Origin: Pseudomonas putida
Lineage (GTDB): Bacteria; Pseudomonadota; Gammaproteobacteria; Pseudomonadales; Pseudomonadaceae
Reading direction: 5' to 3'
Length of the DNA: 64,000 nucleotides
Assembly (NCBI RefSeq): GCF_005080685.1
Contig: NZ_CP039371.1
Location: forward strand, 4,030,001-4,094,000
Position 1 is the stretch's first letter. Each line of letters starts with the position of its first letter. The translations under genes were made by a program, and so were the position numbers. Positions 32,717 to 47,649 of the stretch are shown piece by piece. The notes beneath the pieces were generated by a model. The model had not been told where the DNA came from. It saw only the letters and a list, made by a program, of their open reading frames with translations, and did not search any database.

Positions 32717-33031
32717 ATGCCATGCAAACCCTCCCGAGTCCCCCCCGTACTCGACCAAAACCTGCGCCCCAGCTACAGCCGAGCCCAACCCCTGTTCTCC
32801 GTTTCCCCAGGCATCACTCTCCAATACGCCTCGACAGAAGCCCGAAAACTGATGGACTGCGCCCGGTACCTGGACCAGACCGCTGTGATGAGTGACGACA
32901 AGCAAATGAAAGCGGCGGCTCACCACGTTCTGGACATGGTTAAGGTCCTCCTGGAAGAGATTGAGCAAGGGATGCTGCCTTCGCGGTTGCGGGCGGAGTT
33001 TTATGCGCCTGATAAACGTGATCGGAGTTGA
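32717..33031 (+). CDS. DUF3077-like small protein
   Basis: A 104-residue protein with LFSVSPGITLQYASTEARKL followed by MDCARYLDQTAVMSDDKQMK and AAAHHVLDMVKVLLEEIEQG. It aligns by eye with the protein at 32293 (FCIEPGIPCKHA...A.Y..NL...), so the two are paralogues. Cytoplasmic, with no known activity. It is convergent with the ACP-like pseudogene to its right. Confidence 0.7.
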   Translation: MPCKPSRVPPVLDQNLRPSYSRAQPLFSVSPGITLQYASTEARKLMDCARYLDQTAVMSDDKQMKAAAHHVLDMVKVLLEEIEQGMLPSRLRAEFYAPDKRDRS

Positions 33032-33074
33032 AGGCACGCATAGATTGTCAGAAGGGCAACTTGCAGGTGATTGC

Positions 33075-33297
33075 CGTGATGCTTTGTCTGACCGATCTGC
33101 AAGTTGCCCGATGGTTGTCGAATCGGGTGATTCGTGTTCGAAGAGGACGTCGAATCCTCTTCGATGAACAACACCGCATCGAAAACGCCCAGCCCGTATT
33201 TGTCAAGGCCCTCCAAGGTTGACGACCTGGTGATTGGCAATCTGGGAAGGTTTCTTTTTGAATCGGCTGGATGCGGTGAAAGGTGGTTGTGGTCATG
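33075..33297 (-). pseudogene. Frameshifted second copy of the ACP-like gene
   Basis: The minus strand starts MTTTTFHRIQPIQKETFPDC, matching the paralogue FERIKAILEDAFLDC at 24824-25060. It then shifts frame to STLEGLDKYGLGVFDAVLFI (paralogue STLGSLDDDGLDVFDVVLMI) and shifts again to DSTTIGQLADR (paralogue DSTTVGQLADQ). At the phosphopantetheine position it also has Gly (YGL), so the Ser was already absent in the common ancestor. At least two frameshifts make it non-functional. Confidence 0.8.
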
Positions 33298-33313
33298 GGA
33301 CTGCCGCCTTGGA

Positions 33314-33343
33314 GTGGTTTCACACTCCATGATTGGCACAACG
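33314..33343 (-). promoter_or_regulatory. Conserved 30-bp block (copy 3) upstream of the ACP-like pseudogene
   Basis: GTGGTTTCACACTCCATGAT followed by TGGCACAACG matches 25079-25108 at nearly every base. The adjoining CTGCCGCC text is shared with copy 1 too. The block thus belonged to the duplicated unit. Confidence 0.45.
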
Positions 33344-33469
33344 GGATTTGCTAGATAGCAGCGAAATTATCTGAATTAGAATTCAACGCGCCAAACATGG
33401 CGCGGGACACTAATTTTACCCATACACTCGGGCACTTATGCAAAACTGCTCCCCCACCATGAACCGCCC

Positions 33470-34483
33470 TTAAACATCTGGCATTTCAAGTGACACAACA
33501 ACCTCGCGCTCATCCACAACAACATCCACATCTTTCTTAACCAGATAAAAAACAAACCCCTGATTGGGAAGTACTCCACCGTCGACCCTGAATATTTTCT
33601 GAATTGAGCTTTCAGATATTAAGCGAGGAACAGTAGACATCAAAGGACTGATATCAAAATGATATCCGACCGGAAAGTTAACTATTATATCAGCACCTAC
33701 TACCGGGACCTTCGTACCTTGTGCATCTGTGATATCCCCCCTGTAATGCTTCTCAAAAACCGTATTATATTCCGCATAGCTTTTTGCAGGAATCTTCACC
33801 GAATAAGAAACTGTTAGCTTATTACCCTGCTGCGCAACATCAATATTTATATTCTTGGATGCATCATCAGGATTATATTTTACTAAAACCTCACCAAACT
33901 GTCCGTGACATTCAGCGGATATCAACCTGTAAGAGCTACCGCCAAGCGCATCGAGATCCAGGCGGATTGGATTAGATATTTCTTGATGACTCAAATTATG
34001 AAGCTCGTAGCGTGTGGTTTGCCTGCAAACAATCACATCGCCACACAGAGTAAAATCATAGATCCACTTCGCTTCTTTCCGAAGCACCTTATTTTCAATA
34101 ATTTCTTGTTTTATTATTTTAAAAATCGCCTCAGGAATTATAGTCTTGAAAAGACTATCAAAAACATTAACACTGATCGCTTCATTCAGCCTATTTAACT
34201 CATCTTGCTTTTCATCATGCAGCGTTTTTTGTAATCTATTAGCAATAAAAACAGTGATGAATATTGCCGCACCCAACCCATATAGAAAATTCTTCACCAA
34301 CCCCACTACTTGATACCATAAAGGAAAAGTAGCCTCCACGGAAGTAATTTTATCACCCGCCGCACTTAACCTAACTTTATTACTGAACTCCACTGCAACG
34401 TTCGACGAAATCAAGTCCAACCCGAACGCCGCACATACAACCAAAACAACGTAAAATAAATATAAATATTTTTCTTTGATCAT
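33470..34483 (-). CDS. Island membrane protein of unknown function, 337 aa
   Basis: I do not recognise this family. Two transmembrane segments are visible, residues 5-25 (YLYLFYVVLVVCAAFGLDLI) and about 56-82 (YQVVGLVKNFLYGLGAAIFI), followed by a coiled stretch (LQKTLHDEKQDELNRLNEA) and a large soluble part of about 230 residues rich in beta strands. The soluble part is likely cytoplasmic. The gene is clearly AT-richer than its surroundings and uses more A/T-ending codons, a sign of transfer. It is the left-most gene of the accessory island; two-helix proteins with soluble sensors are frequent in defence islands, but that role is only inference. Confidence 0.75.
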   Translation of the reverse strand: MIKEKYLYLFYVVLVVCAAFGLDLISSNVAVEFSNKVRLSAAGDKITSVEATFPLWYQVVGLVKNFLYGLGAAIFITVFIANRLQKTLHDEKQDELNRLNEAISVNVFDSLFKTIIPEAIFKIIKQEIIENKVLRKEAKWIYDFTLCGDVIVCRQTTRYELHNLSHQEISNPIRLDLDALGGSSYRLISAECHGQFGEVLVKYNPDDASKNINIDVAQQGNKLTVSYSVKIPAKSYAEYNTVFEKHYRGDITDAQGTKVPVVGADIIVNFPVGYHFDISPLMSTVPRLISESSIQKIFRVDGGVLPNQGFVFYLVKKDVDVVVDEREVVVSLEMPDV

Positions 34484-35087
34484 TTTTAGTTACTCTATCC
34501 GAGCCGAATGCTATCAAAATGATAGCATGCGGCCACCACGATGTCGAAGTACAAGATCGTACCCGTCATGGTAGCGCTGGGAAGATTGGCTGGAGCATCA
34601 ATGGCAGCATTTACTGAATCGTGTCCAGATTCACACCATGGGGACCTCGTCCTCCATGGAGGCTCTATGGGGTCCTCTTTGAGATGAGCATGCACGTAGC
34701 TTCCTGGGCAACTGACGCGGCAGTTAGTGTGCGGTGACCTAGCCGGCTATGAGACCAATATCGAACGGGACAGCGTCGATTGGCAGCCTTGCTCATGCGC
34801 GCCCCAAATTCCTTGACTTGCATGCGGCGAACGAGAGTCAGTTGGCCGAGCAGGCCTTTGATTGGTGCTCTGTACGAGGTCGAGCGACAGGCCAAGGACG
34901 TGAGCGAAAAGATCGCTAACACATACGTGGGCCTGTCCGTTGCCACAGGACAGGCCCAATGGCTTGCTTGCGGAGGGTCGAGATCCGAAGAGGGAGCAGT
35001 ACTACCCTAGAAGCTGTAGGAAGTTGTATGAGGATAAAGGGCCTCACGCAATCTTCACACAAAATTGCGCAAGGTCAGATCCCTCCC
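34484..35087. other. Gap of 604 bp with mobile-element debris
   Basis: No intact gene is supported. It contains an IS66 transposase fragment (34851-34911) and otherwise unassigned sequence. It separates the AT-rich membrane-protein gene from the ADP-ribosylation operon and probably marks a recombination junction within the island. Confidence 0.5.
34851..34911 (+). pseudogene. IS66-family transposase fragment
   Basis: The plus-strand frame reads RPLIGALYEVERQAKDVSEK, which matches the IGxLYxVERxAKD core of IS66 TnpC transposases. No DDE catalytic residues, zinc finger or terminal repeats are seen around it, so only a small relic remains. Confidence 0.6.
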
Positions 35088-36833
35088 CTATCCGCGCTTA
35101 TGACGAAGACGTGTAGCTCTCGCTTTCGCCACAATCGAGGCATAGCCGGTAGCGAGCGTCACCCCATTGGGGTGTTCGGCGATCAAAAGCAGGTGCCGGC
35201 CTATCAACTCTGGATCGAAGCTTTTGATCGCTTCTGAAGACAGTGCATCGATATCAATTGCGACGGTTTCGCCGGGAATGATATCCTCCTCAGACAAAAC
35301 ATCAATAGCAACTTCCTGCTGATTATCCCCATAGCTGCTCTGAGCTATAAAGTTTGGCACCACAGCTTCAGCATCATATGCAACATCTGCATCCAGCACC
35401 GACAGCTCACTTTCAACTTCGCTATCATCCGATTGATAATCGAAAAGATCAGCAATGTTCTTATCACGCTCAACGGTTTTATCAACAGCTTCGCTGTCCA
35501 ACCCTAACTCAGCACGCATCCGAACCAGAAGGCTTTGCCCCCAAGACGTCCCGAACCACTGCCAAGTAACCCCCTTCTGTCGACCCTTAAATCTCTGACC
35601 GGAGGGTGAGACAGAACCGAATCCCTGAAGAACGTACTGGCCGTCAGAAATGGTAAGTGTATCAATGACTGCTCTAGGCGCCTGCCAATACAAGGTGTCC
35701 GGATAGGAAAAAGTTCGCTCTGTAGCGCCTTGACTGATGTTGAAAAGACGGTTGGCCTCCATCCGAATATACGGCTCGTCTTGAATCTCACCAATAAACT
35801 TCGCATCAGGCTTTGCTGCACCAATCAATGCACCGGCCATGCTCGCGATAGTATCAGTATCACTCCAAAGCAGATTGGCAACTACTTCCATGATCTCTTG
35901 GGATCCGGCTCGCTGCCCCAAATACGCAGCCACATTAGCGAACAGCGCCGACTTGAGCCCGGAACCCCGCTCTTCTTTGCTAAGGCCGTTATCATCCTCT
36001 ACTATCTTTACATACAAAACCGTGGGCGATTCATTGGTTTGCGCGAACCAATCCATAGCCTTGCCAACAGATAGACTCCACTCATTGGCTACCTCATCAG
36101 CGGCGCGTTCCAGTGTAGTTTTGCTGTTTCTTTCCCAAGTAGGCACCCAAAAAGTGAGCAGATCCGTGTCACTCTTTATGAGCTTCGGAATGCTTCGAAT
36201 ATCATCACTGTACCGAAGCCAATCGCTATCCGAAGACATCCGACCATGCTGCATGACATGAGCCAGAGAAAGCGCATGCACCACTGCACCCGCAATCCCG
36301 CGCATATGACCATGAGTGCAGATAGCATTACGGATGACGTCAACAAGGTAAGACGGCTTATCGTCTAACTTGCTAGCGGCCCACACATGAGGCTGAATGC
36401 GCATAGCAGCACCATTGCCACCCCCACTTTCATATCCTTTAAAAAAATTGCTAAACCAAGCAGTACCCCTATTCGCCAAAGAACTTGCAGCCGCTTTGCT
36501 ACCTCGGCCTGCGCCAAGCGCGTAGATTTGCCAGACCGGAATTTCTATTTTTGCAAATGCCTCGACGTCGAAATACCCTTGACCGGAGATAGCTCGACTC
36601 GTAGAAAGTCGAAGCTGGGTATCATCAGAGTAAGAACCTGCGGGTAAGGTGACGTCTGCACCGAACCTACCGCCTACCAGACGCTTCCACTGGCTAGTAC
36701 GCGTGGATTTGGTTTGGCCCACACGCCTTTTGACCAAATCCTCCGAAGCGAGCTCTGTAGGAAAACCCAACGCATCGCCGTAAGCCGACCAAAGAGCTGA
36801 GGATATCGTGCGTTTCAGCCTGGATTCGGACAT
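35088..36833 (-). CDS. DraG-type ADP-ribosylglycohydrolase with long C-terminal extension
   Basis: A 581-residue protein whose first 380 residues form a DraG/ARH ADP-ribosylhydrolase. The metal-binding motifs are complete: WSAYGDALGFPTELA, SYSDDTQLRLSTSRAI, GGGNGAAMRIQPHVWA, THGHMRGIAGAV and LWSDTDTIASMAGALIGA. These enzymes remove ADP-ribose through a di-magnesium centre. Residues 400-581 are extra compared with ordinary ARH proteins (300-360 aa) and include an acidic stretch (DLFDYQSDDSEVESELSVLD). AGGTGA eight bases before the ATG at 36833 favours that start; a GTG at 36845 overlaps the upstream stop. As last gene of the trio it is the likely immunity partner of the DarT-like enzyme. Confidence 0.85.
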   Translation of the reverse strand: MSESRLKRTISSALWSAYGDALGFPTELASEDLVKRRVGQTKSTRTSQWKRLVGGRFGADVTLPAGSYSDDTQLRLSTSRAISGQGYFDVEAFAKIEIPVWQIYALGAGRGSKAAASSLANRGTAWFSNFFKGYESGGGNGAAMRIQPHVWAASKLDDKPSYLVDVIRNAICTHGHMRGIAGAVVHALSLAHVMQHGRMSSDSDWLRYSDDIRSIPKLIKSDTDLLTFWVPTWERNSKTTLERAADEVANEWSLSVGKAMDWFAQTNESPTVLYVKIVEDDNGLSKEERGSGLKSALFANVAAYLGQRAGSQEIMEVVANLLWSDTDTIASMAGALIGAAKPDAKFIGEIQDEPYIRMEANRLFNISQGATERTFSYPDTLYWQAPRAVIDTLTISDGQYVLQGFGSVSPSGQRFKGRQKGVTWQWFGTSWGQSLLVRMRAELGLDSEAVDKTVERDKNIADLFDYQSDDSEVESELSVLDADVAYDAEAVVPNFIAQSSYGDNQQEVAIDVLSEEDIIPGETVAIDIDALSSEAIKSFDPELIGRHLLLIAEHPNGVTLATGYASIVAKARATRLRHKRG

Positions 36834-36841
36834 ATTCTTTT

Positions 36842-37483
36842 TCACCTAATTTTCTCGAAGAGCTCGGGCCTGACCAAGACCTCGACCGCTGGATGGGCCG
36901 TGGCAGCCATTTGTCCTGCGAGCTCATCCGAATGTTCATCACAACGCACGTAGATGCGTTGCAGATAACGAGTTGAAACCTCTCCCGGATACAGAATCTC
37001 CGCTTGGTTGCAAGTCGTCTCGTTTTCAGGGAACCCTTCAGTTCGTTCCGCATAATAACTCGAATACTGATGCGTCTTTTGCTGAAATGCGCGCTGGAGG
37101 CCCTCCAGACCAGGAGACCTCAAATTACCGGTATAAATGTTGTTCGTGGTGGTGAACTGTACATTGTCATGCAGCATGATCTCCGGCGCGAAGTCGAAAA
37201 TGCACCAGAAAAAGTCCTTTTCTCGATGCCAGCTCCCTGAGCAGGTATTGAAAAAATTCATGTTGATCCGGCTGATAGACAGGTTGGCATAGTCAAGCCA
37301 CGCCAAGTCCTTGTCCCGGTACTTGGCATTAGGTTGAAAAATATGCTTGAGCTGTTCATCTGCGTTCAGCCGCTGTCGCGACTTCAACGCGTTGCAAGCG
37401 AAGATCCCCAACGACCCCCTGTTGGTCGTGAAATGCACAACAGATTCGATGCCACGCTGCTCGATAAATTGCTCGATGTTCAT
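36842..37483 (-). CDS. DarT-like DNA ADP-ribosyltransferase (DUF4433 type)
   Basis: A 213-residue protein of the DarT/DUF4433 fold, whose characterised members attach ADP-ribose to DNA bases. Seen: the NAD-binding HFTT at residues 17-20 within SVVHFTTNRGSLGIFACNAL, the middle YANLSISRINMNFF, and near the C-terminus QAEILYPGEVSTRYLQRIYV, where Glu162 corresponds to the catalytic Glu of the family. The ATG overlaps the helicase stop as ATGA. The following gene is an ADP-ribosylhydrolase, as expected for a toxin-antitoxin arrangement, but of the DraG rather than the macrodomain class. The target base cannot be told from sequence. Confidence 0.75.
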   Translation of the reverse strand: MNIEQFIEQRGIESVVHFTTNRGSLGIFACNALKSRQRLNADEQLKHIFQPNAKYRDKDLAWLDYANLSISRINMNFFNTCSGSWHREKDFFWCIFDFAPEIMLHDNVQFTTTNNIYTGNLRSPGLEGLQRAFQQKTHQYSSYYAERTEGFPENETTCNQAEILYPGEVSTRYLQRIYVRCDEHSDELAGQMAATAHPAVEVLVRPELFEKIR

Positions 37484-38898
37484 ACGTCCCTGCCCTCATA
37501 CAGCTCCTCCTCGACGAAGCGCATGATATCTGGGGTGTCGGAGGGTTTAAAGCCAATCATGACGCTGTCACGTGCACGCCCGATCCCCATGGCGATTAAG
37601 CGACGCAAGCGAGCAGAGGGCTCATAGCCACCGCCGTCATCGTCATCATCTTCCTCCTCGTCCGGAGCATTCACGTCCAGCACCGACCCGTCCAGCCCAA
37701 TCATGATGACATGATCGAACTCCAGTCCCTTGCTGGAGTGAATCGTGCACAGAGCGATGTTCTCTTCACCCTGGGGCCACTCGGAGTTACCGGCAATGCA
37801 AACAAAGGGATATCCTGCCCGGCGCAATGCCGGCATGAGGTCTCGGAACCAGCCTTTGGGGTGCAAGAAAGCAACGGAGTTCTGTTCAAGGTCAATTTCG
37901 CTCAGGAACTCGATTGCTGCCTTGACCTGATCCAAGTACTCACCCATCAAAACGATAGGCTTAGGCCCATGACCTCGGGCGGTGTTGAAGTTCGGCATGG
38001 TACCGTTGTCATCCATCGCGACACCATCGAGCAACGCATTCGCAAAGCGAGCGATCTCGTGGGTGTTTCGATAGTTTGTCTCGAGCCGATGGCTTTTCTC
38101 CGAGCGCAAAGTCACACCCACTTCGCCCCAATTGAAATTACGTGTGTAGATGCGCTGCGCGCTGTCCAATACAAAGGTCACAGACGCTTCAGGGGAGCAT
38201 TGACGCAGAAGCGCTCGGATCTCGTTGGCAGAGAAATCCTGGGTTTCGTCAACGACAACCACGTCACATTGCTCGTAATCATGAGACGCAATCGTGCAGG
38301 CGAGATCGTTCCAGTCGACCAGACCCCGAGTGCGCTTGTGATCGATGTAGGGACGGATGACCTCGTCCAATAAGATCTGCCGTGCAGGCCGCTCCATACG
38401 AGGTGTGCTACCACGCCCTTCTCGTCGAGTAGAGAGGTAGTCGTCCAACTGATCCGTCTCAAACCGCCCCAGGACGTATAGCGCCTCTTCCAAACCAAAC
38501 TCTACATCCAACCGGGTCTTGGCCAGGTTCTGACGCAGAAACCGCTCGGTTTGCTCGAAATCAAGGATGTTATCAGCATCGGTCAAGCGTCTTGCCCACT
38601 TGTTGAACGTGGAAATCTCAACCGAGATACCCGTGTCTGGCAGCTGTTGCTCCGCTAATTCGCTGATGTAGCCGCGCAGTGTGCGGTTGTAGGTGAGCAC
38701 AAGGACTCTGACCGGTTTGGGATTAACTTGGCGGCGCGCACGGCTGAGGTAGAAGCCGACGCAAGCTCGTAGCTTTAGAAGTGCGGTAGTCGTCTTACCA
38801 CTTCCTGCTGCGCCTCGAATGACCTCTACGCCAGGACTGACACGCGAGAAAAGGGCCAACTGTTCGGCAGTGGGAATGACATCGATCAAGGCTTTCAT
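37480..38898 (-). CDS. SF1 UvrD/GajB-like DNA helicase of the ADP-ribosylation trio
   Basis: A 472-residue superfamily 1 helicase. Motifs in order: Q-motif PTAEQLALF (residues 9-17), Walker A RGAAGSGKTT (28-37), VVVDETQDFSANEIRALLRQ (motif II, DExQ), LETNYRNTHEIARFAN (motif IV), CTIHSSKGLEFDHVIMIGLD (motif V) and the motif VI-like MGIGRARDSVMIG. It is short for UvrD and near the size of Gabija GajB, and an acidic run (PDEEEDDDDDGGG) interrupts the C-terminal domain. The ATG at 38898 gives a normal N-terminus; an ATG at 39027 would add 43 residues. It overlaps the DarT-like gene by 4 bp and heads the leftward operon. Confidence 0.85.
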   Translation of the reverse strand: MKALIDVIPTAEQLALFSRVSPGVEVIRGAAGSGKTTTALLKLRACVGFYLSRARRQVNPKPVRVLVLTYNRTLRGYISELAEQQLPDTGISVEISTFNKWARRLTDADNILDFEQTERFLRQNLAKTRLDVEFGLEEALYVLGRFETDQLDDYLSTRREGRGSTPRMERPARQILLDEVIRPYIDHKRTRGLVDWNDLACTIASHDYEQCDVVVVDETQDFSANEIRALLRQCSPEASVTFVLDSAQRIYTRNFNWGEVGVTLRSEKSHRLETNYRNTHEIARFANALLDGVAMDDNGTMPNFNTARGHGPKPIVLMGEYLDQVKAAIEFLSEIDLEQNSVAFLHPKGWFRDLMPALRRAGYPFVCIAGNSEWPQGEENIALCTIHSSKGLEFDHVIMIGLDGSVLDVNAPDEEEDDDDDGGGYEPSARLRRLIAMGIGRARDSVMIGFKPSDTPDIMRFVEEELYEGRDV

Positions 38899-39966
38899 GG
38901 GGCCATCCGTCCAATGGAAAAAGCCGATGCTAGCACCAAATGATGGCCAATCAATGGCCACCCTGTGCTGGACAGTGAACAATTTACTGGTTAATCGTTT
39001 CTGCGGCGCTCCACCATTCGTCGCCACGTATTTTCAATGTGTTTAGCTCAAGCTCTGCGCTCTCTGAGGCTATTTTCTCATTTCGTCTCTACCGCCGATG
39101 ACTCAAAGAGACGACTTGCGCCAAGCGTCATTTCACTGAAGCCAGGGGCGCAACCGAAACCCCTCAGCATGATGGTCCCATTCACGGATTCATCCATCAC
39201 ACCTGTGCCCCTCTGGATCTTTTGCCAGGTACCATGATCCATGGATCCCCGCCCTTCGAACGAGATTTGGAACCTCCTCTATGTGCTTAGCCACACACTG
39301 TTTTGATTGCACTGTTGTCGCGAGCCACCGGTATGCGCCGCGTGAGACCATGTTGGCTGACCTTCCACGGTTAAACCGCAAGGCAATAGACCTAGGCAGG
39401 ATCAACATTCTGGAGGGCACCAAGGCGACCCGTCGAATTGCGGTGGCCGACCATGTCCGCAAGGCGCTTGAGTTTGCGGAGCAAGGATCGCTTGCGAGTA
39501 GTCGCGACCTGATTGCAGCACATGAAAGGGACCTGAGTTTTCTGCCAACAATCATCCGCCCGGCGCGGGATAACCTGTATGCCCCAGGCCTCAAAGGCCT
39601 CCATGAACTACGAGCGGCGTAGGCATGTGAGCGCTATGAGCAAATCACCCAACACCGCGCACCTATCAACGGCGATCAATAAATCGCAGAACGCTGGCAC
39701 CGACAAACTCCCTAGGCTTGACAGAGAAAGCGTGTGGCTTGGTTTCCTGAGTATGTCCCAGGTCGGCGCAGTGACGATACCTGGTATTAATACTTGCTGA
39801 CTGCGAGACTGCTCGCTTGTCCTTTAGAAAAGTCATAGATTTCAACCGCTCTCAGGACGTAGATAGGCCAGACGACGGAGGATGAAAGTCCTCGCTGCTG
39901 ATACTGGCAGCATGCCTCTAGCCCTTCTGATAAAGTCCGCAGCACGTCATAGGGACATAGCCAGCC
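38899..39966. other. Divergent gap of about 1.07 kb between helicase and hsdR
   Basis: This holds the promoters of the helicase trio (leftward) and hsdRMS (rightward), plus one doubtful small frame at 39350-39622. I see no clear operator or terminator in the remainder. Confidence 0.45.
39350..39622 (+). CDS. Doubtful small reading frame, about 90 aa
   Basis: The frame from the ATG at 39350 reads MLADLPRLNRKAIDLGRINI, then RIAVADHVRKALEFAEQGSL and FLPTIIRPARDNLYAPGLKG. It looks protein-like, with a helical middle, but I recognise no family. No convincing ribosome site precedes it and an ATG 69 bases upstream is also possible. It could be a remnant of an island gene. Confidence 0.3.
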   Translation: MLADLPRLNRKAIDLGRINILEGTKATRRIAVADHVRKALEFAEQGSLASSRDLIAAHERDLSFLPTIIRPARDNLYAPGLKGLHELRAA

Positions 39967-42330
39967 ATGGACAAGAAATCACTTTCCGAGCGGGACATTT
40001 GCAGTAAATACGTCGCCCCAGCCATCCAGCAATCTGGGTGGGACATGCACAAACAGGTGCGTGAGGAGGTCAGCTTCACCAAAGGCCGTATTATGGTCCG
40101 TGGCAAGCTTCACAGCCGGGGCGAAGCACGCCGTGCAGACTTCATCCTCTACCACCAAGCCAACCTGCCAATCGCTGTGATCGAGGCGAAGGATAACAAG
40201 CACTCCATTGGCTCCGGTATGCAGCAAGCTCTTGGCTATGCAGAGGCGTTGGATGTGCCGTTCGTATTCTCCAGCAATGGCGATGGCTTCCTCTTTCATG
40301 ATCGCAGCGGGACAGGCAGCAACGTCGAAACTGAACTCTCCTTGGATCAGTTCCCTAGTCCTGCCGAACTTTGGCACCGCTACTGCCAATGGAAGGGGCT
40401 GGACAATGCTGCTCAACACAAGATAGAAGCGCCCTACTACGACGAGGGCTCTGGACGTATGCCGCGCTATTACCAAATGAACGCCATCAACCGCACCGTT
40501 GAGGCGGTAGCGCGCGGGCAGGACCGCGTTCTGCTGGTAATGGCAACTGGCACTGGAAAAACCTACACCGCCTTTCAAATCATCTGGCGACTATGGAAAT
40601 CAAAACAGAAAAAAAGAATCCTATTCCTAGCCGACCGCAACATCCTAGTCGACCAGACAAAGAACAACGACTTTAAGCCCTTCAGCCAAGCGATGACCAA
40701 AATCGCCAGACGCCAGATAGACACCTCCTACGAGATCTACCTGTCGCTCTATCAGGCGGTGACTGGCGCTGAAGAAGAGATGAACGTCTACAAGCAGTTC
40801 TCCCGCGACTTCTTCGACTTGATCGTGATCGACGAATGCCACCGTGGCAGCGCCGCCGAGGACTCTGCATGGCGCGAGATTCTCGACTACTTCTCCAACG
40901 CCACACATGTCGGCCTCACCGCAACACCGAAGGAAACCAAAGAGGTGTCCAGCATCACCTACTTCGGTGAACCGGTGTACAGCTACACCCTCAAACAGGG
41001 CATCGAGGACGGTTTTCTCGCGCCCTATAAAGTGGTGCGGATCGACTTTGACAAAGACCTGCAAGGTTGGCGCCCACCCAAGGGCATGCTCGACAAGAAT
41101 GGCGAACTGATCGAAGACCGCATCTACAACCTCAAGGACATGGATCGCACCCTGGTCATCGAGGCGCGTACCCAACTGGTGGCGCAGAAGGTCACCGAGT
41201 TCCTCAAGGCCTCCGACCCGTTCCAGAAAACTATCGTCTTCTGCGACGATATCAATCACGCCGAGCGTATGCGCCAGGCCTTGGTCAACCTCAACCCCGA
41301 GCGCGTGGCTGAGAACCGCAAGTACGTCATGCGCATCACCGGCGATGATAACGAAGGCAAGGCCGAGCTGGATAACTTCATCAACCCGGAAGAGCGCTAC
41401 CCGGTCATCGCCACCACCAGCAAGCTGATGACCACCGGTGTCGATGCGCAGACTTGCAAGCTGATCGTGCTCGACCAGCACATCAAGTCGATGACCGAGT
41501 TCAAGCAAATCATCGGCCGTGGCACCCGAATCAATGAAGACTTCGGCAAATACTGGTTCACCATCATGGACTTCAAGAAGGCCACCGAGCTGTTTGCCGA
41601 CCCGGCCTTCGACGGTGACCCGGTGGTGGTTTACGCCCCTGAAGGCAGCGAGCCGCCAATTCTGCCCGACGATTTACTTGAAGGAGATGGCATCAGTGCA
41701 GGTAGCGATGGAGAAGGTGATGATCTGGACTTTACCGGCGAGGAAGACGGCAAGAGGCGCATCAAGTACGTCATCGACAGCATCCCGATCTATGTCATCG
41801 CCGAGCGTGTGCAGTACTACGGCCCGGATGGCCGACTGATCACCGAATCGCTGCACGACTACACCCGCACCTGCATAAAAAAACAGTTCGCCTCGCTGGA
41901 CGATTTTCTGCGCCATTGGAGTGATGCCGAGCAGAAAAAAGCCATCATCGACGAAATGGCAGCCCAAGGCGTAATGTGGGAAGCCTTGGCCGAAGAAGTG
42001 GAAAAGAAACAGGGCAAGCCACTCGATCCGTTTGACTTGATCTGCCACGTCGCCTTCGACCAACCGCCGCTGTCGCGTAAAGAACGCGCCGAACAGGTGA
42101 AAAAACGTAACTACTTCGCCAAGTATTCCGGTGCAGCCCGCCAGGTGCTGGAAGCGCTGCTGGATAAATACGCCGACACCGGCATTGAGCACATCGAGGA
42201 CATCAAAATCCTCCAGCTCGATCCCTTTAACCAGCTCGGTGCACCCATCGAACTGGTTAAAGCCTTTGGTGGCAAAGCTGGCTACAACAAAGCTATCCAT
42301 GAACTGGAAGACGCGCTGTACGCCAGTTAA
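39967..42330 (+). CDS. hsdR: Type I restriction enzyme, restriction subunit HsdR
   Basis: A 787-residue restriction subunit. The N-terminal nuclease shows the PD-ExK pattern [20 protein letters not shown] (Asp and Glu-x-Lys). The translocase has Walker [15 protein letters not shown] in [15 protein letters not shown], the SF2 motif [24 protein letters not shown] and [16 protein letters not shown]-terminal region (from about 690) mediates contact with HsdM. Length is typical of the EcoAI-like type IB group. It starts the rightward hsdRMS operon; hsdM follows after 100 bp. Confidence 0.95.
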
Positions 42331-42430
42331 TCTGCTCTACCCGTAGGGTGGGCAACGACGGAGCCTTGTCCCCCTTAGCAGCCAACTCCATTACAATCCC
42401 CCGCTTTGCCACACCGATTGAGAATTCGTT

Positions 42431-43900
42431 ATGTCCATCAGCTCCACCATCAAGTCCATCCAGGACATCATGCGCAAAGACGTCGGCGTCGATGGCGACG
42501 CCCAGCGCATTGGCCAGCTGGTCTGGCTGCTGTTCCTCAAGATCTTCGATGACCGCGAGCTGGAATGGGAACTGATGGACGACAACTACAAGTCACCCAT
42601 TCCCGACAGCTGCCGCTGGCGCACCTGGGCAGCTGACCCGGAAGGCATGACTGGCGATGCGCTGAAGGACTTTATCGACAACAACCTCTTCCCCCAACTG
42701 CAGAACCTGCACGAATACAGCAACACACCCTCGGCCTTTGTGGTGCGCAGCGTATTTGAAGACGCCTACAACTATATGAAATCTGGCCAGCTGCTGCGCC
42801 AGGTGATCAATAAGATTCAAGAAGGTGTGGACTTCAACAAGGCCCAGGAACGCCACGAGTTCGGCAACCTCTACGAGCAATTGCTGCGCGACCTGCAGAA
42901 CGCCGGCAACGCGGGCGAGTTCTACACTCCGCGCCCGGTCACCGAATTCATGGTGCGCATGGTCGATCCCAAGCTGGAAGAGAAGGTCATGGACCCGGCC
43001 TGCGGCACTGGCGGCTTTTTAACCTGCGCCATCGAGCACAAACGCAGCCGCTATGTAAAAACCGCCGAGGACGAACGCATCCTGCAGGCCAGCATCTACG
43101 GCGTTGAGAAAAAGCCGCTGCCGCACTTGCTGGCCACCACCAATATGATCCTGCACGGAATCGAGGTGCCCAGCCAGATCCGCCACGACAACACCCTGAG
43201 CAAACCGCTGATCAGCTGGGGCCCGAGCGAGCGCGTGCACTGTATCGTCGCAAACCCGCCTTTCGGCGGCATGGAAGAAGACGGCATCGAAACCAACTTC
43301 CCCGCGGCCTTCCGCACCCGCGAAACCGCCGACCTGTTTCTGGTGCTGATCATGCAGTTGCTCAAAGACGGTGGCCGCGCCGCCGTGGTGTTACCCGATG
43401 GCTTTCTGTTCGGCGAAGGCATCAAAAGCCGTATCAAGGAAAAGCTACTCACCGAATGCAACCTGCACACCATCGTTCGCCTGCCTAACGGTGTCTTCAA
43501 CCCCTACACCAGCATCAAAACGAACCTGCTGTTCTTCACCAAAGGCACACCAACTAAACAAGTGTGGTTCTACGAACACCAGTACCCGACCGGAGTAAAG
43601 AACTACTCCAAGACCCGCCCCATGCGCATCGAAGAATTCTCAGTGGAAGAAACCTGGTGGGGAAGCGAGGCCGATGGCTTTGCCGCAAGGGTGGAGAACG
43701 AATTTGCCTGGCTGGTCAGCGTCGAAGAGTTGCAAGCGCGCAACTGGAACCTGGACTGCAAAAACCCGCATATCGGCGAACAAATCAGTCACGACCCGGA
43801 CGAACTGCTGCGCAACTACGCCACGCTGCAAGGCGAGATCAGCGACCTGCGCGACCAGATTAAGGCCGTGCTGGCTGAAGCCCTGGAGCGCGAGATATGA
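42431..43900 (+). CDS. hsdM: Type I modification methyltransferase subunit HsdM
   Basis: A 489-residue N6-adenine methyltransferase. The N-terminal helical domain (VDGDAQRIGQLVWLLFLKIF) is followed by the AdoMet motif DPACGTGGFL, catalytic ANPPFGGMEEDG and VVLPDGFLFGEGIKSRIKE. HsdM2-HsdS methylates host sites to protect them and assembles with HsdR. Its stop codon overlaps the hsdS start (ATGA), so specificity subunit translation is coupled. Confidence 0.96.
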   Translation: MSISSTIKSIQDIMRKDVGVDGDAQRIGQLVWLLFLKIFDDRELEWELMDDNYKSPIPDSCRWRTWAADPEGMTGDALKDFIDNNLFPQLQNLHEYSNTPSAFVVRSVFEDAYNYMKSGQLLRQVINKIQEGVDFNKAQERHEFGNLYEQLLRDLQNAGNAGEFYTPRPVTEFMVRMVDPKLEEKVMDPACGTGGFLTCAIEHKRSRYVKTAEDERILQASIYGVEKKPLPHLLATTNMILHGIEVPSQIRHDNTLSKPLISWGPSERVHCIVANPPFGGMEEDGIETNFPAAFRTRETADLFLVLIMQLLKDGGRAAVVLPDGFLFGEGIKSRIKEKLLTECNLHTIVRLPNGVFNPYTSIKTNLLFFTKGTPTKQVWFYEHQYPTGVKNYSKTRPMRIEEFSVEETWWGSEADGFAARVENEFAWLVSVEELQARNWNLDCKNPHIGEQISHDPDELLRNYATLQGEISDLRDQIKAVLAEALEREI

Positions 43901-45573
43901 CGACGCTGCTTACCGATAACCTGCCACTACTGGCTGGTGCACCGAACGGTATCAAAAAGCTGCGTGAACTGATTCTGGAACTGGCGGTGCGCGGCAAGTT
44001 GGTGCCGCAAGATCCAAGTGATGAGCCGGCCAGCGAGTTACTCAAGCGTATTGCCGAGGAAAAGGCGCGGTTGGTGGCTGAGGGCAAGATCAAGAAGCAG
44101 AAGGCGCTGTCTGAAAGAGATGCCGAAGATCCAGCATTTGAGCTGCCAGCGGGCTGGGCGTGTGCTCGACTTGCTGATGTTGTGAATGTACTTAATGGTA
44201 GGGCCTACAAGAAAGAAGAGCTGCTAGACGCAGGCACGCCCGTCCTGCGAGTTGGGAACCTATTTACATCCAATCATTGGTATTACTCGACCCTCACCCT
44301 TGAAGAGGATAAGTACTGCAATCCGGGAGACTTACTGTTTGCTTGGTCTGCATCCTTCGGACCATTCATTTGGCATGGTGAGCGCTCAATCTACCACTAC
44401 CACATCTGGAAGCTCGATTTTTACGCCAAAGGTCAGCTCAGCAAGCATTACCTATACAACTATTTGCTGGAGCAGACTCAAGAGATCAAAGCTGCTGGCC
44501 ATGGCGTATCTATGGTTCACATGACCAAAGAGAAAATGGAAAGGCTGGTATTGCCAGTGCCCCCGCTCGCCGAACAAGACCGCATCGTCGCCAAAGTCGA
44601 TGAGCTGATGGCCCTGTGCGATCGCCTGGAAGCCCAGCAGACCGACATCGAAAGCGCCCACGCCCAACTGGTGCAAGCGCTGCTCAACAGCCTGACCCAA
44701 GCCAGCAACGCCACCGACTTTGGTGCCAACTGGCACCGCATGGCTGAGCACTTCCACACTCTATTCACTAACGACCCCAGCATCGACGCCCTCAAGCAAA
44801 CCCTGCTGCAACTGGCTGTAATGGGAAAACTGGTCCCGCAAGATCCTAGTGACGAGCCTGCCAGCGAGTTACTGAAGCGTATCGCTGAGGGAAAGAAACA
44901 ACTTCTGATCGATGGAAAGTTAAAAAAAGAAAAACCGCTATTACCTCTTGAGGACCTCCCATTCGAACTGCCAAAAAATTGGAGCTGGTCACGGCTAGGG
45001 CGCTTAATAGCTGATTTACGATATGGTACGGCAACTAAATGCGACTATTCTGGCACTGGTACGCCGGTACTCCGAATTCCGAACATCGGAGATCCGTCAA
45101 TCCTGCTAGACGACCTAAAATATGGAAATTTATCAAGCGATGAGATTGATGCACTGAAGCTTTTGCCTGAAGACTTATTAATGATCAGGTCAAACGGCAG
45201 TGCATCACTGGTAGGAAAAACTGCGGTAGTAACAGACTCGGTTACTCACTGTGCATTTGCGGGATATCTAATTAGAATACGATTCCCGAAATCCTGTATC
45301 AGCTCTTACTACCTGCAGCTAGCGATGAAGTCACTTGATGTCCGCTACTCCATTGAATCCCCAATACGAACTACAAGCGGCGTAAAAAACATTAATAGCA
45401 CAGAGGTGTCCAACATTCGAATTCCGCTCCCCCCTCTTGCCGAGCAACACCGAATAGTTGCCAAAGTCGATCAGCTCATGGCCCTTTGTGATCGACTTAA
45501 AGCCAGCCTAACCCAGGCCAACCAACTTAACGATCAGCTAGCTAGCACCGTGATTGAGCAGGCAGTGGGGTAA
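43897..45573 (+). CDS. hsdS: Type I specificity subunit HsdS
   Basis: A 558-residue DNA-recognition subunit with two target-recognition domains (about residues 85-220 and 350-520). Each is framed by repeats: LAVRGKLVPQDPSDEPASEL and LAVMGKLVPQDPSDEPASEL before the domains, PLAEQDRIVAKVDELMALCD and PLAEQHRIVAKVDQLMALCD after them. The second target domain is visibly AT-richer than the repeats, which suggests that it was exchanged by recombination. The bipartite site cannot be predicted. The start overlaps the hsdM stop. Confidence 0.95.
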   Translation: MTTLLTDNLPLLAGAPNGIKKLRELILELAVRGKLVPQDPSDEPASELLKRIAEEKARLVAEGKIKKQKALSERDAEDPAFELPAGWACARLADVVNVLNGRAYKKEELLDAGTPVLRVGNLFTSNHWYYSTLTLEEDKYCNPGDLLFAWSASFGPFIWHGERSIYHYHIWKLDFYAKGQLSKHYLYNYLLEQTQEIKAAGHGVSMVHMTKEKMERLVLPVPPLAEQDRIVAKVDELMALCDRLEAQQTDIESAHAQLVQALLNSLTQASNATDFGANWHRMAEHFHTLFTNDPSIDALKQTLLQLAVMGKLVPQDPSDEPASELLKRIAEGKKQLLIDGKLKKEKPLLPLEDLPFELPKNWSWSRLGRLIADLRYGTATKCDYSGTGTPVLRIPNIGDPSILLDDLKYGNLSSDEIDALKLLPEDLLMIRSNGSASLVGKTAVVTDSVTHCAFAGYLIRIRFPKSCISSYYLQLAMKSLDVRYSIESPIRTTSGVKNINSTEVSNIRIPLPPLAEQHRIVAKVDQLMALCDRLKASLTQANQLNDQLASTVIEQAVG

Positions 45574-46280
45574 TGAGCAAAATATTCAATATCTATTGCG
45601 ATGAATCTTGCCATCTGGAGAACGATGGCCAGAAGGCCATGGTGCTGGGTGCGGTCTGGTGCCCTGAAGCTAAGCGCCTGGAGATCGCCAAACGCCTTCG
45701 TGAAATCAAGTTAAGGCACAAGCTACTGCCGGAGTTCGAGATCAAGTGGACCAAGGTAGGCGCGACCAAGCTGCAGTTCTATTTGGACTGCATCGACTAT
45801 TTCTTCGATGACGACGACCTGCATTTCCGCGCTCTGATCGTGGCTGACAAGGCCCGCCTCAATCATCAGCAGTACCGGCAGAGCCATGATGACTGGTACT
45901 ACAAAATGTACTTCTCGATGCTCAAGACTATCTTCGAGCCGGAAGCTGGTTATCACGTTTACATCGACATCAAGGACACCTTGGGGCATGAGAAGGTCGC
46001 CAAGCTGCATGAAGTACTGGCCAATAATGCCTACGACTTCTCGCGCAGAATGATCCGCCGGGTACAACGCATTCACTCACACGAGGCGGAGCAGCTGCAG
46101 TTGGCCGACCTGCTCATAGGCGCATTGTCCTATCTGCATCGTGAGCTTGCAGGCAGCGAAGCCAAGCAGCGCCTGATAGAGCGTATCCGCGAGCGCAGCC
46201 GCTATAGCTTGAAGCAAAATACCCTATTGCGCGAGTCTAAATTCAATCTGTTTTTCTGGAATGGGAGCAACGGCGCATGA
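45573..46280 (+). CDS. DUF3800 protein coupled to hsdS
   Basis: A 235-residue protein of the DUF3800 family, which has an RNase H-like arrangement of acidic residues: IYCDESCHL at the N-terminus, VYIDIKDTLG in the middle and EAEQLQLADLLIGALSYL near the C-terminus. Such proteins are common in defence islands and phages, and a nuclease role has been suggested. The start overlaps the hsdS stop (TAATG), so it is made together with the restriction system. Its contribution to restriction is unknown. Confidence 0.85.
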   Translation: MSKIFNIYCDESCHLENDGQKAMVLGAVWCPEAKRLEIAKRLREIKLRHKLLPEFEIKWTKVGATKLQFYLDCIDYFFDDDDLHFRALIVADKARLNHQQYRQSHDDWYYKMYFSMLKTIFEPEAGYHVYIDIKDTLGHEKVAKLHEVLANNAYDFSRRMIRRVQRIHSHEAEQLQLADLLIGALSYLHRELAGSEAKQRLIERIRERSRYSLKQNTLLRESKFNLFFWNGSNGA

Positions 46281-46762
46281 GCCTGCCGGGATGGCTGCCA
46301 CCGCTGGAGGAACTCAAGGCTTACGGGGGCGATTTCTCTCGTTATCTGGAAGCCATCTACCAAATTTTCTGTACCGACTTCGTTGAGTCAAAACTTGAAT
46401 TCGCAGGCAAGCGCTTGGCCTTAAAGCGCCACCCGGTTATCCAAGGAAAGGAAGCAACTTTCTGGCACATGATTTCCGAAGGCGACGACGAAGCGGAGCG
46501 CCTGCCCGACTTGCGGCGTAGCGAGCGCATTCGCTGGCCCAAGCCGATTATCGAAAATGCTGCCGATTCCGCGCTCAAGGTCTGGCGCGAACCGAAGGGG
46601 TCAGGTCATCGATTGCTGATCTGGTTTGCCGAAGCCCAATACCTAGTGGTTCTGGACGAGCGCAAGGACTACATCCTGCCTTGGACGGCCTATCCGGTCG
46701 AGCGGGAGCATCAGCAGAGAAAACTCGAAAAGCGCTGGGAGCAGTATAGCGAAGGGAATTAG
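46277..46762 (+). CDS. Hypothetical protein coupled to the DUF3800 gene
   Basis: A 161-residue cytoplasmic protein with no family I can name firmly. It overlaps the DUF3800 gene by an ATGA junction, hence belongs to the hsdRMS transcript. The C-terminal half (HRLLIWFAEAQYLVVLDERK, YILPWTAYPVEREHQQRKLE) resembles the TAYxVE ending of phage-associated barnase/RelE-like nuclease domains, a weak hint only. The N-terminal YLEAIYQIFCTDFVES is helical. Confidence 0.65.
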   Translation: MSLPGWLPPLEELKAYGGDFSRYLEAIYQIFCTDFVESKLEFAGKRLALKRHPVIQGKEATFWHMISEGDDEAERLPDLRRSERIRWPKPIIENAADSALKVWREPKGSGHRLLIWFAEAQYLVVLDERKDYILPWTAYPVEREHQQRKLEKRWEQYSEGN

Positions 46763-46987
46763 GCTGGCCGCGCCCTCCGTAGGAGGACGGGGCCGTTACT
46801 CCTTCTACGCTGACACCCGAAGGCTGGTAGATGAGCTGAGGCGAACAGTAAGTCCTACCGGCCTAAATTTCAAGTAACGTTACGTTAAATCAGACGACTG
46901 TTGCCTAAGCCGCGACTGTTGCCTCATCCTAGGTTCAAGCGATACGCTTGGACCACAGCCTGTCTCCACCGCATTGAATGAGCGGAA

Positions 46988-47320
46988 TTAAGGGTACAAA
47001 GTCGGCTGCGAAATGCCATAGCGGCGGGTCACGTCACTAGACTGTACCTCAATATTTCTGAGAAGAGCTTTCATCTCACGCACCTGGCGAGGATCAAGCG
47101 GTGGCTTGCGCCCATCGCCCTCCCATGGGCCCGAGCCGCCACTCCTCCACGAGATCACTCTCGAAAGAGGTTGCGCTCGAGTTCTGCCAGCGCAGCAATT
47201 ACATAAAAAATCCGCTTGCGAATAACGCTGGAGGTTTCAATTCGTTCGTTGATGGACTCAACGTCAGCCTCACCCTCTTCCGAGCGGCTGACTATTCAAA
47301 TTAGGTCGACCAGCGAGAGT
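46988..47320 (-). pseudogene. Serine recombinase (resolvase/invertase) pseudogene
   Basis: Minus-strand frames give SLSLVDLI, a TGA, then IVSRSEEGEADVESINERIE, VIAALAELERNLFRE, a second TGA, SRGGVAARAHGR, then after a frameshift DGRKPPLDPRQVREMKALL and SSDVTRRYGISQPTLYP to a stop at 46988. This is the C-terminal two thirds of a Tn3-type resolvase, including the helix-turn-helix. Both TGAs sit where family members have Arg (CGA to TGA). The catalytic Ser domain is missing. It lies between the restriction operon and tRNA-Pro. Confidence 0.8.
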
Positions 47321-47526
47321 GAGAAATGTGAAATGCTCATGGCTGTACCTAGTTTCCGACCAAATAGCATTCCAAACGGTATTCCAGCTGAGAGCAAAAA
47401 AGAAAAATAGCTCCAACAATCAACTAGATGGATTCTTAGTTCAACTTACCCCGGCCCAGCATAGACGCCATACCGCCCGACCGCGCATCAGAGTGGCCGT
47501 ACGCACCACAACAAAATCACCAAACA
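47321..47526. other. Island end, unassigned
   Basis: This AT-richer sequence between the recombinase relic and the tRNA terminator contains no supportable gene. It is the likely right border zone of the island. Confidence 0.4.
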
Positions 47527-47563
47527 AAAAAAATCCAGCCACTTCACAGTGACTGGATTTTTT
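47527..47563 (-). terminator. Rho-independent terminator of tRNA-Pro
   Basis: AAAAAATCCAGCCACT pairs with AGTGACTGGATTTTTT around a TCAC loop. On the minus strand, the direction of the tRNA, the stem is followed by a run of eight T. It lies 10 bp past the tRNA 3' end and is nearly symmetrical, so it may work both ways. Confidence 0.85.
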
Positions 47564-47572
47564 AGGGATTTT

Positions 47573-47649
47573 TGGTCGGGACGGAGTGATTCGAACACTC
47601 GACCCCTTGCACCCCATGCAAGTGCGCTACCGGGCTGCGCTACGCCCCG
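47573..47649 (-). tRNA. tRNA-Pro (anticodon GGG)
   Basis: The 77-nt minus-strand sequence starts CGGGGCGTAGCGCAGCC and ends CGTCCCGACCA with the CCA encoded. The anticodon arm is CTTGC-ATGGGGT-GCAAG, giving GGG, which reads CCC and CCU. The D-loop AGCCCGGTAGCG and T-arm GAGTGTTCGAATCACTC fit. Its 3' end faces the accessory island, a common integration target. Confidence 0.96.

Follow-up and report, generated by a model that had tools for sequence, protein, structure and literature searches.

A conserved helicase, DarT1-like transferase and ARH-fold hydrolase operon of Pseudomonas putida: a candidate mobile anti-phage module

Why should a DNA helicase be encoded together with a DarT-like ADP-ribosyltransferase and an ADP-ribosylhydrolase of the ARH/DraG fold? 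The question is raised by three leftward genes in a 64,000-nucleotide stretch of Pseudomonas putida DNA (contig NZ_CP039371.1, positions 4,030,001 to 4,094,000; the whole stretch is called the window), for which an earlier reading, made from the letters without database searches, had proposed a defence or toxin-antitoxin role (Table 1). Our analysis indicates that the trio is probably a mobile three-gene toxin-antitoxin-like anti-phage module that resembles DarTG1, with a helicase added and the ARH as a new eraser. The open reading frames confirm the gene junctions described earlier: the helicase and DarT genes overlap by 4 bp, and the DarT and ARH genes either overlap by 4 bp (GTG start of the ARH) or lie 8 bp apart (ATG start at 36833, preceded by AGGTGA, giving 581 aa). 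The longest helicase frame runs from 37480 to 39027, and a conserved ATG at 38898 (M1 is invariant in the alignment) sets the protein at 472 aa. All three family assignments were likewise borne out, both by Pfam (PF03747 ADP_ribosyl_GH, 3.8e-28; PF14487 DarT, 8.2e-16; UvrD_C, 4.3e-9, and AAA_19, 1.1e-8, on the helicase) and by structure and fold matches. The window genome (6.61 Mb) contains one DarT-family and one ARH-family match, both at this locus. Promoter-like and terminator-like sites numbered 5 and 6 against shuffled means of 3.5 and 5.1, neither above chance.

The first matter to settle is whether the three genes belong together. A DarT search with a 28-row alignment, run over a collection of 84,980 species genomes together with viral contigs and seeded by two short conserved peptides, yielded 66 outside loci (63 on genome contigs and 3 on viral contigs); because of this seeding the set represents the present DarT subclade and not all DarTs. 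Profiles of the window proteins placed the ARH next to DarT in 66/66 of these loci and the helicase in 65/66, the exception (L065) starting within DarT at a contig end. The order helicase-DarT-ARH on one strand was identical in 65/65 loci, and by longest frames the helicase and DarT genes overlap by 4 bp in 45 loci and the DarT and ARH genes in 22. Pairwise protein distances correlate across 61 rows (rho 0.72, 0.62 and 0.60; highest permuted value 0.21), and in a separate plasmid collection the other two genes adjoin a trio-type DarT in all four records that contain one. As a control, we examined 29 loci of other DarT-family matches in the order, of which one (L095, itself a trio) has this ARH or helicase within its 1.5-kb flanks. 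Thus, the genes are not chance neighbours, and it is all but certain that a conserved three-gene system exists. A conserved fourth gene was considered and rejected, since in an all-against-all comparison of 769 flanking genes no family kept a constant position; the largest cluster, which by eye resembles integrases, comprised 6 loci at scattered offsets.

Hosts of the trio span several phyla, and their record titles include Pseudomonas, Xenorhabdus, Vibrio, Mesorhizobium, Nocardia, Streptomyces and metagenome-assembled genomes, the last of Acidobacteria-, Chloroflexi-, Desulfobacterota- and Dadabacteria-type lineages. Divergent trios were found on Rhodococcus, Streptomyces NBC_01220 and Shinella plasmids, and three copies (L025, L036, L068) look disrupted. 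PF14487 matched 33 of 390 genomes of the order at 41 places, and among the 30 places scanned the trios were those of the window and L095. The trio-DarT profile gave five matches in 398 genomes of the phylum, a strong one in the window and four weaker ones (best 2.6e-15), three of which are neighbours of a NADAR and one (L132) of a macrodomain protein. In 369 genomes of the class, the matches to the ARH profile other than the window's own protein were all short and generic. In E. coli, 21/5426 complete genomes match a Kluyvera trio at 90-95% (93.8% in the 15 records listed), and no relative of the trio DarT was matched in 50,697 phage records.

The transferase firmly belongs to the DarT1 type and not to the thymine-modifying DarT2 enzymes, as judged by sequence, fold and tree. 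Its residues H17, F18, T19, R36, N52, R56, D59, S69, F78, N114, Q160 and E162 match the DarT1 active site, and DarT1 is its best PDB match by sequence as well as by fold. In the trio alignment H17 is found in 66/67 rows (one gap) and E162 in 67/67, while the position of Tyr71 in the DarT2 H-Y-E motif is occupied by Ser69 in the window, by Ser in 64/67 rows and by Thr in 2/67. The DarT likeness that the sequence-only reading had drawn from HFTT and Glu162 stood, with the 213-aa protein modelling as a DarT in structure prediction; the implied kinship with the thymine-specific DarT of the DarG pair did not. DarTG2 membership was rejected on the separate clade, Ser69 in place of Tyr71 and the lack of a macrodomain match. 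The protein reaches 14 bits with NCBIfam's DarT toxin model, whose cut-off is 150, so the usual DarTG-toxin annotation does not fit. DarT1 enzymes are normally paired with a NADAR antitoxin and have been shown to modify guanine in single-stranded DNA (ssDNA); one study (PMC11543638) describes modification of ssDNA with no activity detected on double-stranded DNA.

The ARH fold and its two-metal motifs are present by Pfam, predicted structure, alignment and a fold search covering residues 5-376, and the ligands D74, D75, D329, T330 and D331 are each retained in 67/67 rows. This upholds the earlier call of a DraG-fold hydrolase with di-metal motifs; the unusual 180-residue acidic extension noted with it is not one conserved thing. 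After the catalytic domain (residues ~1-371) come a small beta-domain (~397-444) conserved across trio loci, a disordered linker (451-526; predicted local distance difference test score, pLDDT, below 50) and C-terminal helices (532-584). Asp and Glu make up 30% of the linker in the window, 25% in L003 (Pseudomonas sp. S31) and 6-24% in the other linker-bearing loci. We rejected the acidic stretch as a functional hallmark, as it is acidic mainly in the window and this nearest relative. ARH1 and DraG cleave ADP-ribose from the guanidino group of arginine, and because guanine N2 belongs to a guanidine-like group, ARH activity on guanine is chemically plausible. We predict that the trio ARH removes ADP-ribose from guanine-ADP-ribosylated DNA.

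The helicase, described beforehand as a superfamily 1 (SF1) enzyme with all its motifs, does have motifs I-VI intact in the alignment and is UvrD/Rep-like (SF1A). The Walker A Lys is found in 61/66 rows, the other five (L018, L025, L034, L042 and L051) having no residue at that position. The profile aligns to UvrD residues 14-299 and 551-617, and the intervening 89 profile positions (293-382) stand against 252 UvrD residues (299-551), which makes the trio helicase ~160 residues shorter between subdomains 1A/1B and 2A, a 2B-sized deletion; the 2B subdomain between motifs IV and V is not present in the profile. In Rep and UvrD, 2B restrains the monomers, so a helicase devoid of it could be active alone. 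RefSeq names the E. coli protein '3'-5' exonuclease'; Pfam found no nuclease domain in the window helicase. Its predicted task is to supply or select ssDNA for DarT.

The surroundings of the trio point to mobility and defence. Copies occur on plasmids, on an integrase-borne island and beside Tn7-like transposition genes, and the three E. coli copies inspected share one integrase-borne island with RADAR ~13 kb away. The nearest relative among the fetched loci, in Pseudomonas sp. S31, shows 96% DarT identity, and its DNA similarity to the window ends at most ~90 bp from the operon on each side, a further short match (39312-39680) lying apart in S31. The operon appears to move as a unit, since this similarity hardly exceeds it. 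Near neighbours of the trio (139 proteins) match 69 PADLOC families at 1e-20, and the 25 families shown include RmrA/RmrT, OloA/OloB, DpdF, HmaA, BrxH and PsyrT, whereas 110 proteins from 11 hand-picked stretches of the window genome match 3 families (RtcR-type, 1 member each), a rough contrast because families and not proteins are counted and the control is one genome. Few Pfam families recur among these 139 neighbours (HTH_3 in 6, Peptidase_M78 in 4, phage integrase in 2). The defence role, for which the earlier reading had cited the location in support, is matched by a defence-rich, mobile setting. On a Rhodococcus sp. WAY2 plasmid (L100, 2521-11415), HigBA, a multiubiquitin/ThiF set and an Abi-family gene come after a divergent helicase-DarT-ARH operon.

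Our reading of the trio as a DarTG1-like module has its basis in observed features, namely gene content, order and co-inheritance, intact catalytic motifs, kinship with DarT1, the ARH fold and defence-rich neighbourhoods. DNA is the likely target and defence the likely role; by analogy with characterised relatives, the target would be guanine in ssDNA and the system would be toxic and protect against phage. In the putative mechanism the DarT1-like enzyme would transfer ADP-ribose from NAD+ to guanines in ssDNA and so block replication, and the ARH would act as eraser and antitoxin that keeps the host DNA clean by cutting the N-glycosidic bond to guanine N2. The compact helicase would act together with DarT by unwinding or tracking along invading or replicating DNA, and in this way would provide or choose the single strands on which DarT depends. 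An ARH acting on guanine-ADP-ribosylated DNA and a helicase with this task would both be without direct precedent. A bolder form of this proposal, to which we give somewhat less than even credence, is that the ARH-fold enzyme is dedicated to removing ADP-ribose from guanine in DNA and took the place of NADAR in one branch of the DarT1 systems, and that the module's own helicase aims or activates DarT on invading duplex DNA, which would spare DarT from waiting for ssDNA to appear.

One locus bears on this replacement. In L133 (G1004) the gene of a related helicase (profile E 2.8e-78) shares a 4-bp overlap with a DarT1 gene, to which a NADAR gene of the DarT1 type is convergent, which suggests an eraser swap with helicase and DarT1 as the core and either NADAR or ARH as the eraser. 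Searches for further helicase-DarT1-NADAR loci confirmed none in viral contigs scanned with the L133 helicase and yielded nothing but NADAR pieces in E. coli. A helicase-profile scan of viral contigs returned at least one relative, a weak one, among the matches listed; the helicase matched in 148 plasmid records, 15 of them listed, and the one new context opened (Geobacillus) is without DarT. The helicase relative in G1118 is a RelE-like/UvrD protein with no DarT among the open reading frames of its locus, and L152 (1489-3627) encodes a 712-aa protein in which a RelE-like N-terminus (by eye) is joined to a UvrD-type helicase. Other DarT contexts were also recorded. On a Nostoc sp. C052 plasmid (L103, 3572-10320), a 531-aa DarT (C-terminal DarT domain) and an ARH follow a 1246-aa AAA_11/AAA_12 (Upf1-type) helicase-domain protein within a BREX-1 locus, between pglX and pglZ/brxL. 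On a Deinococcus sp. QL22 plasmid (L146, 3081-6301), an 846-aa protein, whose first 650 residues have no Pfam match at 0.01, ends in a DarT domain and is followed by a DarT1-type NADAR, with an N6-methylase gene and pglZ flanking. In L142 (3-3091) the neighbour of a NADAR-DarT1 pair combines a helicase C-terminal domain with an Mrr-type nuclease domain.

Several observations weigh against our proposal. The helicase-DarT1-NADAR arrangement was seen in 1/10 NADAR loci scanned, four of the ten as 3.6-kb pieces, and that single NADAR, being convergent, lies outside the operon; in 4 contexts opened of 15 plasmid records holding relatives of the L133 DarT, no separate SF1 helicase gene is annotated next to DarT. 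The tree places L133 and L103 not firmly (long branches) and supports the fork joining divergent ARH-paired and NADAR-paired DarTs at 82/82 only, so that neither the number nor the direction of eraser changes is fixed. Within the transferase, D54, which DarT1 requires, is Asp in 47/67 trio rows and another residue in the remainder, N48 is Asn in 54/67 and the M71 position is mostly Phe or Tyr. The residues K74 and Y75, which read guanine O6/N7 in DarT1, are not alignable to the trio DarT, and the target base could therefore differ. In published assays the ARHs tested (human ARH members and the ARH-like SCO5809) were inactive on guanosine-ADP-ribosylated RNA, and we found no phage-defence data for the trio.

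Of the competing explanations the most serious, unlikely as we judge it, is a protein-modifying switch akin to DraT-DraG, in which the DarT-like enzyme would modify Arg or Ser of a protein (the helicase or one of the invader) and the ARH would reverse this. The characterised ARHs among the PDB matches do act on ADP-ribosyl-arginine or -serine proteins, toxin-immunity pairs of an ADP-ribosyltransferase (ART) and an ARH have been solved (6dre/6drh, 8za7), and linkage of the helicase is almost as strict as that of the ARH; however, the transferase is DarT1-like with most DarT1 active-site residues kept and is not an Arg-specific ART, and the helicase-DarT1 pair also stands beside NADAR, a family shown to act on guanine (PMC11543638). 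A DNA damage or replication-repair module, in which helicase and reversible DNA ADP-ribosylation would regulate host forks with no part in defence, appears improbable. UvrD-like helicases are repair enzymes, and M. tuberculosis DarT is described in PMC12170906 as controlling replication and gene expression, but the trio is patchy and rare (1 strong match in 398 phylum genomes and 2 trios at the 30 order DarT places scanned) and keeps company with plasmids, an integrase-borne island, Tn7-like genes and defence neighbours. Slightly less probable again is an ARH that is not the eraser and instead removes free ADP-ribose, signals derived from NAD or ADP-ribosylation that phages place on proteins, DarT being restrained through binding to the helicase or to the ARH. 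A binding platform could be formed by the conserved beta-domain and the C-terminal helices, and the tested ARHs failed on guanine-linked ADP-ribose in RNA, yet the metal-ligand residues examined are kept throughout, and the partner in known DarT operons is the eraser. Chance grouping in a defence island, for which one could cite the type I restriction-modification locus and other defence-like genes in the window, is rejected as practically negligible by the co-occurrence across distant bacteria, the distance correlation (rho 0.60-0.72 against a permuted maximum of 0.21) and the single trio among the 29 control loci.

Table 1. Features of the helicase-DarT-ARH locus and its surroundings (window coordinates).
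Feature	Coordinates	Strand	Remarks
SF1 (UvrD/Rep-like) helicase	37480..38898	-	472 aa; Pfam and motif alignment
DarT1-like ADP-ribosyltransferase	36842..37483	-	213 aa; Pfam, structure and tree
ARH/DraG-fold ADP-ribosylhydrolase	35088..36845	-	585 aa from GTG; 581 aa from ATG
DNA similarity block with Pseudomonas sp. S31 (L003)	35001..38960	-	87.9% identity over 3975 columns; likely mobile unit
Low-GC stretch	33001..47572	.	0.46-0.58 GC per kb; adjoining kilobases >= 0.59
tRNA-Pro (GGG)	47573..47649	-	at edge of low-GC stretch

Within the window the trio lies in a low-GC stretch that also holds an EcoAI-type restriction-modification locus, which substantiates the type I system noted earlier, and a PDC-M04 pair. 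The stretch ends at the tRNA-Pro gene, the single tRNA of the window; of the 'tRNA-bordered island' initially suggested, one border thus stands and a two-sided border does not. No attachment-site repeat derived from the tRNA was found, the longest exact match being 13 bp. Directly after hsdRMS, a DUF3800 protein and its partner (45573-46762) correspond to PADLOC's candidate pair PDC-M04A/B. A 337-aa protein (33470-34483), encoded downstream of the ARH on the same strand, matched no Pfam family above cut-off and by eye has apparent membrane segments at its N-terminus.

If our proposal is correct, the trio would be a third type of DarT system and would connect a helicase with DNA ADP-ribosylation. 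It would also overturn the view that NADARs alone remove guanine-linked ADP-ribose, and would give the ARH family a nucleobase substrate that the published panel did not find. A single transferase fold served by interchangeable erasers (macrodomain, NADAR, ARH) would reveal a modular design. Two purified proteins and one oligonucleotide would suffice for a direct test of the main claim, and E. coli itself carries copies, so that relatives expected to function in K-12 are available.

How does the trio compare with known systems? The PADLOC comparison called for at the outset returned no matching system: DarT matched weakly (6.7e-5), the helicase matches listed were generic (NERD+UvrD, 3.1e-22; GajB, 1.1e-14 and weaker) and those listed contained none for the ARH. 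We found no description of a helicase-DarT-ARH operon in the open-licence literature searched; an earlier mention elsewhere, for instance in reviews of ADP-ribosylation gene neighbourhoods, is possible. An apparent 'DarTG3' in the literature proved to be a superscript reference number, and PMC12839542 contained no match to ADP-ribosylation terms. Like Gabija, with its UvrD-like GajB, and other defence helicases, the trio places an SF1 helicase in a small mobile defence-type operon; it differs in having DarT and ARH as partners in place of a GajA-type nuclease, and no GajA match was among those listed for nine window proteins (the trio and neighbours). With the ART-ARH toxin-immunity pairs (6dre/6drh, which we take to be Tre1-Tri1, and Listeria 8za7) and with DraT-DraG it shares an ARH-fold hydrolase paired with an ADP-ribosyltransferase; to our knowledge, the transferases of those systems are not DarTs and modify proteins, and a helicase is not part of them. 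According to PMC12255303, both DarTG1 and DarTG2 protect E. coli against phage. DarTG2 (DarT2-DarG macrodomain) resembles the trio in the DarT fold and in combining a transferase with a reversing enzyme, but the trio lacks a macrodomain (no match by Pfam and a further family-model scan), carries a Ser/Asn signature where DarTG2 has Tyr/His, and falls in a separate clade. DarTG1 (DarT1-NADAR) has the same transferase group, the same active-site plan and an adjoining eraser gene. Next to the window darT there is no NADAR (PF03747 is found there), and PF22397 has 0 matches in the window genome. No helicase is annotated within 6 kb of the canonical E. coli C7 DarT1-NADAR pair, whereas the trio adds an SF1 helicase gene to its operon and replaces the NADAR eraser of DarTG1 with an ARH that bears a C-terminal extension.

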